A stretch of 34,290 bases of DNA from Melioribacteraceae bacterium (GTDB lineage Bacteria > Bacteroidota > Ignavibacteria > Ignavibacteriales > Melioribacteraceae): positions 1 through 34,290 of the forward strand of contig JAGFIY010000066.1 in assembly GCA_024103215.1 (NCBI GenBank). Direction: 5' to 3'. Each line of letters opens with the position of its first letter. Position 1 is the first letter of the stretch. Below the pieces are notes generated by a model that had not been told where the DNA came from, searched no databases, and saw only the letters and a list, made by a program, of their open reading frames with translations. Positions 20,700 to 23,506 of the stretch are shown one piece after another. The translations under genes and the position numbers were made by a program.

Positions 20700-22829
20700 T
20701 TAAAAAGCTTCGCCAATGGCAAAATGAAATTGGAAAACGTTATCCTTAAAAATTCTTTTCTGCGTTATTGGACGAGGATCTTGTGGATCGTACAATTTAA
20801 AACCGAAATCAATTCTAAACGGAATGAATGAAGAATAATACCTAAACCCGAATCCTCCGGCAACCGCTATATCCTTAAGCACAATTTCGTTGTAATTATT
20901 CCAAACATTGCCGTAATCAATAAAAAGTGCTGAACCTATTTCCCCGAAAAGCCTGTTGCGTGATTCAATAGAACCTTCAAAAATTATAAAGCCGCCTGGT
21001 AAATTATTTTCGAAGAATACTGATTCAAGGTCTGCAATTGTCAATTCGGAAGGAAGTTCCGACACTGCGGGAATAAGTTCACGAGCAGCCCAGCCTCTCA
21101 CAGAGTTGCTTCCGCCTGCTGTAAATCTTTGATTTATCGGAATTTCCGCTTTATCACCGTTGTAAGCATGTAGAATTCCTCCGAGAAGTTTAATACCAAA
21201 TGCAGAAACCTTCGATTTATATACCGCCGGGAAATAAGACGCATTGACTAAAGCTTTATAATAGAGTGGAACTCCGGGTTTTTCTCCGGCAAGTTTATTG
21301 ATTAAAAAATTAATTCCATTTCCGTTCTCAAAGTTTGTCGAAATTCTGAACCCTCTCGTTGGGAAAAGTACATCGTTGGTGCGATTGCTGCCTAAAGTAA
21401 TACCGATAAGATTATTGTCAAAAGTAGATTGCTTTTCGCTCGAAGGAATTTCGGAGAGAAGTACAGCTGCTAATGAATCTACATCAACAAAATCTTGTAT
21501 TCCTTCAATTCTGTTTAATTCTGCTTTGAGCACTCTTAGAATATATTGATCTCGAAAAATTGCTTTGCTGTGTTCGTAATTAATATAAGTTACAAGTGAT
21601 GTGAGAAAAACATTTTGTGCAAGTTCAAAGTCGAAACTAAGCTTAGTACCTGTCAATGATTCATTATAATCTTGTCTTCGTTTTTGAACCGTGAGATAAT
21701 TCTCCCATCGAGTGTGAACTAGTTTACCGAAAAGCATAGGTTGTTCGAGAATTAATCGCAAATCGGAATAACCGTATATGTTTGTATCCGAAAGTGCGGG
21801 ATTCTGCAAAAACTCACTCAAATCCTTAGCTGCCGCGGAGGCTTGAAGCTGAAGCAATCTTGCATCTCCAAAGAAATTCTTTTTCGAAAAACCAAGCGAG
21901 AAACCTATGTTGAAAGTATTATCTTCGTTATTGAAAATAAGTTCTGGAATTAGTTCGTGCATCAGCCCTACATCGGTGTTTACGCGCACAGGAACCGTAT
22001 TTGCCACAGTATCGCCAATAACTTCGGTTACGCTTGCAAACTCGAATAAATTTGTTCTGTAAAGTCTGATTTGAGCCGAAACCATATCGTAAGAACTGTA
22101 ATAATCACCTGAATCTATACTTACTATCTCAGTTATCAAATCATCATCCACCAAATCCTTGCCGGGTCCTTCTTTAACAACTGACAAACCGTTTACTTTA
22201 TACCGCTTTCCGGGAATAAACGTAACATTTACATCAACTTTGTTTGATACAGTATCGATTAAAATCTCAGGAGGATCATAACCGAAAAACATGTAACCGT
22301 GGTTACGCATGTAATCCCGTGTAAAAATAAGTTCACGATTAACAAGACTTTCGTTGTAAATAATTGTAGAATCAATTTGATATTCATCGTTCACTGTTTT
22401 TACGAATTCCGACGGTATTGTCTCAAGTCCGAACTTGTTAAATTTTCTAAAAGTAAACGACGGACCTTCCTCAATATAAAATATTAAAAATACTTCCTCA
22501 TTCTCTCTGTCTAAAGTAAACTCGGATTTAACCTTCGCTTTGAAATAACCATTGATATTGTAAAAAAGTTCAAGTTGTTCGATATCAACAGGGATCATCA
22601 AAGAATCGAACAATATTTCAGATTCACCGAAAGGGGTAAAAGAATTAATAAATTGTGAAAAACCCGACGGACTTTCTTGCGAAGCAAGAATTGATTTCAA
22701 CTCATCTTCGCTGAATGAATTATTCCCTTCGAATGTTATTTCGGCAATCTCGTACTCAATGAGATTGCTTTGGGCATTCAAGCAAGAAAATGAAAAAAGC
22801 ACAATTAAATATATGATCAAACTATTCAC
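20700..22829 (-). CDS. Omp85 superfamily outer membrane protein (BamA/TamA-like)
   Basis: The 709-residue product has a signal peptide (first 19 residues, ending NAQ). POTRA-like beta-alpha repeats follow to about residue 290 (EITFEGNNSFSEDEL is the first). The C-terminal half is a surface-antigen beta barrel from near residue 300 to the terminal phenylalanine (FHFAIGEAF). The loop-6 motif, VRGW at 577-580 preceded by GGSNS, is the Omp85 hallmark. Only about two or three POTRA domains fit, fewer than the five of E. coli BamA, so a TamA-like or accessory assembly role is more likely than the essential BamA; this is uncertain. The start is GTG. It lies 32 bases downstream of the L,D-transpeptidase-like gene. 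Confidence 0.92.
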   Translation of the reverse strand: MNSLIIYLIVLFSFSCLNAQSNLIEYEIAEITFEGNNSFSEDELKSILASQESPSGFSQFINSFTPFGESEILFDSLMIPVDIEQLELFYNINGYFKAKVKSEFTLDRENEEVFLIFYIEEGPSFTFRKFNKFGLETIPSEFVKTVNDEYQIDSTIIYNESLVNRELIFTRDYMRNHGYMFFGYDPPEILIDTVSNKVDVNVTFIPGKRYKVNGLSVVKEGPGKDLVDDDLITEIVSIDSGDYYSSYDMVSAQIRLYRTNLFEFASVTEVIGDTVANTVPVRVNTDVGLMHELIPELIFNNEDNTFNIGFSLGFSKKNFFGDARLLQLQASAAAKDLSEFLQNPALSDTNIYGYSDLRLILEQPMLFGKLVHTRWENYLTVQKRRQDYNESLTGTKLSFDFELAQNVFLTSLVTYINYEHSKAIFRDQYILRVLKAELNRIEGIQDFVDVDSLAAVLLSEIPSSEKQSTFDNNLIGITLGSNRTNDVLFPTRGFRISTNFENGNGINFLINKLAGEKPGVPLYYKALVNASYFPAVYKSKVSAFGIKLLGGILHAYNGDKAEIPINQRFTAGGSNSVRGWAARELIPAVSELPSELTIADLESVFFENNLPGGFIIFEGSIESRNRLFGEIGSALFIDYGNVWNNYNEIVLKDIAVAGGFGFRYYSSFIPFRIDFGFKLYDPQDPRPITQKRIFKDNVFQFHFAIGEAF

Positions 22830-22861: not shown

Positions 22862-23506
22862 TCAGTGTGTTACCTCTACTGGTGTTCCGATAGAAACCAC
22901 GGAAAATATTTCATCAATTGATTCGTCGCTTATTGCGATTGAGCCGTTTGTCCAGTTAAATGTAAAAGGAAGATTTTTGAAGATGAAATTGTAATCGCCA
23001 ATTCCGTGTATATAAATATCCGCACCCAATTTTGTCCCCGGATAGCTGCATTTGTTTGTTTTCATATATTCAATTATTGCGTTAAATTCCTCTTTTGTTA
23101 TAATTGAACTCTTAAAAGCTTCGGAAGCATCGTGAATATTTGGGAAGTCCAACCTGAGGCTTTTATGAAACTCCGATGAATCATTCATTTCACAGATTTT
23201 AAATTTTCCGGAGGGCGTGACAAAATCATTCTTACAACGTTTTATTTTCTCTGAGTTTTTTCCAAAAACCGCTTTATATTCTTTTACCAAAATCGTGTCC
23301 GAATAAAGTTGAAGCGAATAATTAGATTTGTCTATAAAAATCGAAACATTTTTCATTTCTTTTAAACCCTTATCCCTCATCTCTTCTTCTAATGTTTTTT
23401 CACCCGAGTTGAGAATTATTCCATAAATAATCATACCGGCAAAAAACAATATTATACTTATGCTGAAGTAAATAATTTTTCGAATCAAATCTTTATGCCG
23501 GTTCAT
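22862..23506 (-). CDS. L,D-transpeptidase-like (YkuD domain) protein lacking the catalytic cysteine
   Basis: The 214-residue product has one N-terminal membrane segment (residues 11-33) and a YkuD domain in the periplasm: VSIFIDKSNYSLQLY at 54-68, NDFVTPSGKFKI at 93-104, the conserved histidine in IHGIG (His167), and the active-site region TNGSIAIS at 186-193. Family enzymes that cross-link peptidoglycan have cysteine where this protein has Ser189 (codon TCA). Everything else in the motif is retained. It is therefore either an inactive scaffold or an enzyme with an altered nucleophile. It precedes the Omp85 gene by 32 bases, in the same probable operon. No ribosome binding site is clear. Confidence 0.87.
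   Translation of the reverse strand: MNRHKDLIRKIIYFSISIILFFAGMIIYGIILNSGEKTLEEEMRDKGLKEMKNVSIFIDKSNYSLQLYSDTILVKEYKAVFGKNSEKIKRCKNDFVTPSGKFKICEMNDSSEFHKSLRLDFPNIHDASEAFKSSIITKEEFNAIIEYMKTNKCSYPGTKLGADIYIHGIGDYNFIFKNLPFTFNWTNGSIAISDESIDEIFSVVSIGTPVEVTH

Follow-up and report, generated by a model that had tools for sequence, protein, structure and literature searches.

A serine stands in place of the catalytic cysteine in a YkuD-domain protein of a Melioribacteraceae bacterium (class Ignavibacteria), and comparison with orthologous sequences confirms that this replacement is fixed in a lineage rather than being an isolated mutation. The catalytic residues of this protein, here called the pseudo-YkuD protein, have very probably been lost, and its gene is followed nearly throughout the lineage by a gene encoding an Omp85-family outer membrane protein. 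We regard these proteins as a naturally occurring pseudo-YkuD lineage that probably belongs to an envelope module. How cells coordinate the sacculus with outer-membrane assembly is not settled, and a natural, lineage-wide Cys-to-Ser YkuD protein encoded beside an Omp85 protein provides a case, open to experiment, in which a peptidoglycan enzyme may have become a binding subunit, like the degenerate LytM proteins. In searches of the open literature, comprising 5.39 million papers, no paper was found that names both YkuD and Ignavibacteri-, the two papers naming both YkuD and Omp85 were on other subjects by title, and neither a paper on the pseudo-YkuD/Omp85 system nor an experiment on any of its members was encountered.

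Materials and methods

The window is the whole stretch of DNA that was analysed, comprising 34,290 nucleotides (contig JAGFIY010000066.1 of assembly GCA_024103215.1). Searches of order, class, phylum, and named GTDB genomes matched 157 distinct proteins that formed two separate score groups, which were split at 150 bits into 107 orthologues (lowest score 215) and 50 distant relatives (highest score 125). The pattern used to scan the named GTDB genomes contained TNGS, so that Ser proteins were found there by design; it matched 133 stretches, including 95 relatives, of which 80 were kept. Phyla beyond the Bacteroidota were covered by this biased scan only, and the main support for the contrast between Ser and Cys proteins comes from the searches of class and phylum, together with the Pfam-based scan of the family. 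A locus represented by a 10-base stretch (L273) was left out. For a quick tree, 74 of the 107 orthologues were retained after clustering at 72%, together with those Cys relatives that scored above 60 bits (43 of 50). The residue numbering of DpaA was set such that Cys143, Arg108, Tyr109, and Gln86 all fit.

The pseudo-YkuD gene and its product

The pseudo-YkuD gene starts with ATG and has 214 codons (Table 1). Membership of its product in the YkuD superfamily is evident from profile and fold, since residues 55-212 score 52 bits against Pfam YkuD (cut-off 23.4) and the AlphaFold2 model (pLDDT 92) matches Bacillus subtilis YkuD (1y7m) with a Z-score of 16.4 over 110 residues at 2.4 A. The well-preserved domain reported in the preliminary description, with His167 in IHGIG and a TPSG segment, was thereby recovered, as was Ser189 at the nucleophile position of the motif WTNGSIAIS. 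The model begins with a helix of residues 3-33 that has a hydropathy peak of 2.5, and F21, Y28, and G29 of this membrane helix are identical in all 107 orthologues, an invariance that would seem to exceed the needs of a mere anchor. Within the source genome (186 contigs, 99.88% complete) the pseudo-YkuD protein is the single Pfam YkuD match.

Table 1. Features of the pseudo-YkuD locus, in positions of the window.
Feature	Position	Strand	Basis and remarks
Omp85 protein, 709 aa, possibly TamA/TamL-like	20700..22829	minus	Pfam Omp85 and POTRA; GTG start
Pseudo-YkuD protein of 214 aa, with a YkuD domain behind an N-terminal membrane anchor	22862..23506	minus	Open reading frame and translation, Pfam, AlphaFold2
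Membrane-anchor helix, about residues 9-33	23408..23482	minus	Model helix 3-33; hydropathy; invariant F21/Y28/G29
YkuD domain, residues 55-212	22871..23344	minus	Pfam; structural match to YkuD, Csd6, and DpaA
Ser189 codon (TCA), nucleophile position	22940..22942	minus	Alignment of orthologues and relatives
His167 codon, catalytic-base position	23006..23008	minus	His in 89/107 orthologues
Lys89 codon; aligned counterpart of DpaA Lys83, which a docking model places on the mDAP carboxylate	23240..23242	minus	Alignments
Cys105 codon; may form a disulfide with Cys153	23192..23194	minus	Cys in 103/107 orthologues
Cys153 codon; may form a disulfide with Cys105	23048..23050	minus	Cys in 95/107 orthologues

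Conservation of serine at the nucleophile position

The alignment comprises 107 distinct orthologues, of which 106 carry Ser189; they have a median pairwise identity of 47% and stem from three families of the order Ignavibacteriales and one further family of the class. A Pfam YkuD match was obtained in 70 of 79 Melioribacteraceae genomes, and the orthologues of this family, taken one per genome, all carry Ser189 (68/68) in addition to invariant W185, T186, and G188. Across the order, 129 of 146 genomes matched the pseudo-YkuD protein, including two weak matches (in G099 and G133) that need not represent the pseudo-YkuD gene. Cys at position 189 characterises the distant YkuD relatives, being found in all 46 (of 50) that aligned there; the four relatives without a residue in this column read GC by pattern search in two cases and gave no such reading in the other two. 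The motif of the Cys relatives is WT-x-G-C-I/V-A/S, with Ala or Ser at the Arg position in all but one, which resembles DpaA and not the S/T-HGC-x-R type. The quick tree displays one Ser/Cys split, in which the Ser group makes up one side of a branch with an SH-aLRT of 93, just under the 95 mark of the tool.

Conservation of Ser in homologues from Ignavibacteria, proposed as a check in the preliminary description, is thus nearly complete, and Cys, the presence of which in close relatives had been named as refuting evidence, was seen only in the distant group. A lone mutation or sequencing error is ruled out by Ser in 68/68 family members and 106/107 orthologues in total, and misalignment of the motif by the profile alignment, in which the Cys of the motif in 46 relatives lines up with Ser189. 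The same description had argued from the TCA codon that a single error is unlikely; TCA is indeed two changes away from TGT and TGC, but the argument is weak because 29 of the 107 orthologues use TCT or TCC at this position, one change from a Cys codon. The codons found there are TCA (54), TCT (22), TCG (20), TCC (7), AGT (2), AGC (1), and AAT (1), amounting to 103 TCN and 3 AGY codons for Ser.

Very probable loss of the catalytic residues

The position of the catalytic base varies among the 107 orthologues, which have His (89), Gln (15), Glu (2), or Ile (1) at position 167. His is absent in 18 orthologues and at least 11 changes are required on the tree with its 74 Ser rows, a figure specific to that tree, which leaves 49 of its 114 inner branches open. 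All 42 Cys relatives that aligned at this position have His (8 of 50 were unaligned there). Of the features that define L,D-transpeptidases, the Cys of the HGC motif is replaced by Ser189, the His of the HG motif is retained in the pseudo-YkuD protein and absent from those 18 orthologues, and the Arg two residues after the Cys is lacking, this position being occupied by Ala191 and by Ala or Ser in 107/107 orthologues. DpaA, which also has Ala there, is likewise described as lacking this Arg (PMC12729407).

Because of the 18 orthologues without His167 and its repeated change on the tree, a Ser-His nucleophile is unlikely, and a Ser that persists through repeated loss of its base is not what would be expected of a nucleophile. 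The same replacement has been made in the laboratory: LdtMt2 C354S is reported to give no product from four substrates and was crystallised with the natural substrate (PMC11410929; entry 8pxy), and LdtJ C390S is called catalytically inactive (PMC12548408), whereas the Ser of the pseudo-YkuD proteins is natural and conserved. The earlier reading of a non-catalytic YkuD domain stands in view of the conserved Ser and the repeatedly absent His, and we infer that the pseudo-YkuD protein has no enzymatic activity. The lone orthologue without Ser189 (L212:3260-3952) has Asn189 and Gln167, and both catalytic positions are gone.

Structural relationships and the binding pocket

The closest solved sequences are those of DpaA (YafK/LdtF), the peptidoglycan-protein amidase of Escherichia coli, and of the LD-carboxypeptidase Csd6 of Helicobacter pylori. 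The single-protein comparison is marginal (E 0.085, DpaA), and a profile search of solved sequences gave E-values of 1.6e-5 for Csd6, the best match, and 0.00027 for DpaA. In structural comparison the model aligned with Csd6 (Z 16.1, 129 residues), with the LD-carboxypeptidase Pgp2 of Campylobacter jejuni (Z 15.1), and with DpaA (Z 12.9, 125 residues, 2.0 A, 28% identity). The top Foldseek match is Bdellovibrio Bd1075 (E 8.6e-8, TM-score 0.46 by query length), and the TM-scores of the listed PDB matches against the whole model are modest, with values up to 0.48 by query length. Csd6 and Pgp2 keep the catalytic Cys and carry an extra C-terminal domain (an NTF2 domain in Pgp2), which the pseudo-YkuD protein lacks. 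The pseudo-YkuD protein also differs from DpaA, by Ser in place of Cys143, an unconserved His, the membrane helix, a possible disulfide, and the linkage to Omp85; it did not match the NCBIfam model for DpaA (NF040599) at E 0.001, and three homologues fall far short of the cut-off (20 of 365 bits for one, none for the other two).

In a docking model of DpaA, Lys83 is placed on the mDAP carboxylate, and K83A is reported to abolish activity and Y109A to retain 0.7% of it (PMC10653827). By phmmer and profile alignments, Lys83 corresponds to Lys89 of the pseudo-YkuD protein and Tyr109 to Phe113. Lys occupies position 89 in 95 of 107 orthologues and 48 of 50 relatives, and position 113 is Tyr in 90, Phe in 13, and Leu in 4 orthologues. 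The TPxG and YP segments are likewise common to the orthologues and the Cys relatives. As judged from these residues, the binding side of the pocket appears to be largely kept and the cutting side not. Residues specific to the orthologues include the nearly invariant N178-L179-P180-F181, a region where the Cys relatives are mostly gapped and lack NLPF, and the cysteines at positions 105 and 153. Both of these are present in 95 orthologues and Cys153 never occurs without Cys105, a pattern that suggests a Cys105-Cys153 disulfide.

Linkage to the Omp85 gene and identity of the Omp85 protein

The preliminary description placed an Omp85 gene 32 bases downstream of the pseudo-YkuD gene, and this neighbour could be verified: its product scores 120 bits against Pfam Omp85 and has one POTRA match and a barrel. 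The same Omp85 gene follows on the coding strand of the YkuD gene, at a distance of less than 3 kb, in 105 of 107 orthologues versus 0 of 50 Cys relatives, 12 of which have a flank shorter than 3 kb. The linkage, the constancy of which had been proposed as a check, is nearly universal but has two exceptions, one at a contig end (L212) and one in genome G090, in which the pseudo-YkuD and lipoprotein genes are together and the Omp85 gene is on another contig. In the Melioribacteraceae, Omp85 directly follows pseudo-YkuD in 68/68 cases, with gaps of -49 to +52 between the open frames, and outside this family a gene of about 200 codons for an uncharacterised lipoprotein lies between the two. The lipobox Cys of this lipoprotein is invariant in the 21 and 22 members aligned.

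The loci of Melioribacteraceae and Ignavibacteriaceae that were read have largely conserved surroundings, with tsf-pyrH-frr on one side and yicC-gmk-rpoZ on the other (names assigned by eye). The flanks differ in f13, the additional family from the class, with queD-queC-queF upstream (by eye), yet all five f13 loci examined keep the order YkuD, lipoprotein, Omp85. In 17 genomes of the order no YkuD match was found; all 12 of these that were searched, each at least 90% complete, keep Omp85 (the search left out G004, G023, G024, G123, and G139). Two of the 12 also keep the lipoprotein gene, and no YkuD frame was found in the flanks examined; the case of G144, with one Omp85 gene close to a contig end, is uncertain. 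Retention of Omp85 in all 12 makes it the stable part of the module and the YkuD protein the accessory one. On this distribution the barrel would not need the pseudo-YkuD protein everywhere, and together with the separation in G090 it implies a partnership that is not strict.

The Omp85 neighbour obtained its best NCBIfam score with TamL (NF052279), at 178.4 bits for a cut-off of 400, and scored 166.6 bits against BamA (TIGR03303; cut-off 297). It is not the BamA of this genome, which passes the cut-off with 433 bits on another contig (C132, L299:979-3513), in surroundings that look by eye like an uppS-bamA-skp-lpxD cluster. An assignment as TamA/TamL-like is plausible. TamL has been described in operons with TamB (PMC4494059), unlike the present Omp85 gene: the pseudo-YkuD/Omp85 locus is on C49, and the sole Pfam TamB match of the genome (58 bits, over the cut-off) is on C132 (L299:11248-15714), about 8 kb from bamA. 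No Omp85 gene is directly beside that TamB, the NCBIfam TamB score of which is far below the cut-off (48 of 825). The Omp85 neighbour further differs from TamL in having no lipobox that is clear by eye. In total, eight Pfam Omp85 matches were found in the source genome.

Discussion

The reading that we tentatively prefer, at a confidence somewhat short of even, is that the pseudo-YkuD protein is a pseudo-amidase of the DpaA/Csd6 type that would bind peptidoglycan stem peptides and serve a TamA/TamL-like Omp85 protein. A periplasmic YkuD domain would be held at the inner membrane by one predicted helix; its catalytic dyad would have been lost by a fixed Cys-to-Ser replacement and a drifting His, and its pocket would have kept the lysine whose DpaA counterpart is proposed to touch the mDAP carboxylate of stem peptides. 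Such a protein could bind the sacculus without cutting it and act with the adjoining Omp85 protein, and outside the Melioribacteraceae also with the intervening lipoprotein, by which outer-membrane assembly might be tied to, or positioned on, peptidoglycan. The parts of this reading differ in strength. Cooperation with Omp85 or the lipoprotein is rather likely, and the chances that stem peptides are bound appear evenly balanced. Peptidoglycan binding is suggested by the retained lysine and, by analogy, by the published Cys-to-Ser mutants; Lys89 is missing in 12 of the 107 orthologues, so that such binding need not be universal. Inactive DpaA reportedly failed to bind free mDAP dipeptides. Gene order points to a possible role in placing the barrel, and a physical interaction, as well as a function in barrel or lipid assembly, would be in line with this. 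In a more elaborate version, a dead, anchored amidase would read mDAP stem peptides and cooperate with the lipoprotein in placing or gating a TamA/TamL-like Omp85 translocase at sacculus sites. This version is unlikely in its entirety; if true, outer-membrane assembly would have a sensor of its own that reads peptidoglycan directly.

The dead YkuD fold may instead be purely a protein-protein adaptor that does not bind peptidoglycan, with the helix and the WTNGS/NLPF surface contacting Omp85, TamB, or the lipoprotein. This is possible, if somewhat doubtful. It would account for the invariant residues of the membrane helix and for the nearly invariant NLPF that the relatives lack, and it agrees with the YkuD-lipoprotein pair that stays joined even apart from Omp85 in G090 and with the presence elsewhere in the genome of a TamB without a neighbouring Omp85; retention of Lys89, TPxG, and YP in common with the Cys relatives, however, goes beyond what a pure adaptor would seem to need. 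The locus might also be a frozen operon whose order has no bearing on function, with the YkuD protein acting elsewhere in the envelope. This fits the surroundings of the locus, which are themselves largely conserved, but is made improbable by the f13 family, in which the three-gene order persists between different flanks.

An enzyme in which Ser189 is a weak or specialised nucleophile, as in a serine-type hydrolase or a beta-lactam-reactive protein, would explain why Ser is almost invariant and why His is found in most orthologues. A precedent is the YafK protein Lpg1514 of Legionella, for which serine-dependent beta-lactam turnover is described, and nitrocefin hydrolysis is reported for all YafK homologues tested by the same authors (PMC13400389). 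Lpg1514 shares a YafK-like fold with a functional serine, but its Ser132 is elsewhere in the pocket, its activity is supported by His166, and its canonical Cys174 is still there (PMC13400389); position 111 of the pseudo-YkuD protein, matched to that Ser by spacing only, is variable in the orthologues. Taken with the at least 11 changes of His while Ser stays, and with the inactivity of LdtMt2 C354S and LdtJ C390S, this leaves little room for an active Ser189. It is most improbable that the nucleophile has moved elsewhere. Cys105, as the most conserved cysteine, would be the candidate, but its occurrence relative to Cys153 is that of a disulfide partner, and its position is mostly Val, Ala, or Thr in the relatives (35/50).

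The preferred pseudo-amidase reading finds a parallel in degenerate LytM proteins such as DipM, which are described as peptidoglycan-hydrolase folds that regulate wall enzymes without catalysis. The fold of these LytM proteins is unrelated to YkuD. For genome annotation, the L,D-transpeptidase label calls for caution, because no other Pfam YkuD match turned up in the genome: the label would predict YkuD-made 3-3 crosslinks that this genome may be unable to make.

Additional observations on the loci

Members of the lipoprotein family, such as those at L205:6602-7219 and L269:5841-6455, have the consensus YYNSxxYFxGSGGGEVFSY. Four members had no Pfam match above the cut-off. The lipoprotein model (pLDDT 88) is beta-rich and had no Foldseek match at E <=0.001; structural comparison with VIA gave Z-scores up to 8.2, for the most part against portions of large multi-domain proteins. 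The lipoprotein was not found in 75 Melioribacteraceae genomes, in a search that was run without a positive control and in which, for many genomes, only some of the candidates were scored. In G090, the YkuD-lipoprotein pair (L302:3762-4998) lies upstream of apparent small heat-shock protein genes, and the lipoprotein homologue has no lipobox that is clear by eye. In four of the five f13 loci, a 360-codon SDR-like gene is present ahead of Omp85 (L269:6451-7530, L271:4390-5472, L272:5744-6829, and L303:3648-4736). This insert resembles SDR and thioester-reductase-type enzymes; one copy scored below the NCBIfam cut-off, and the other three are 64-73% identical to that one.
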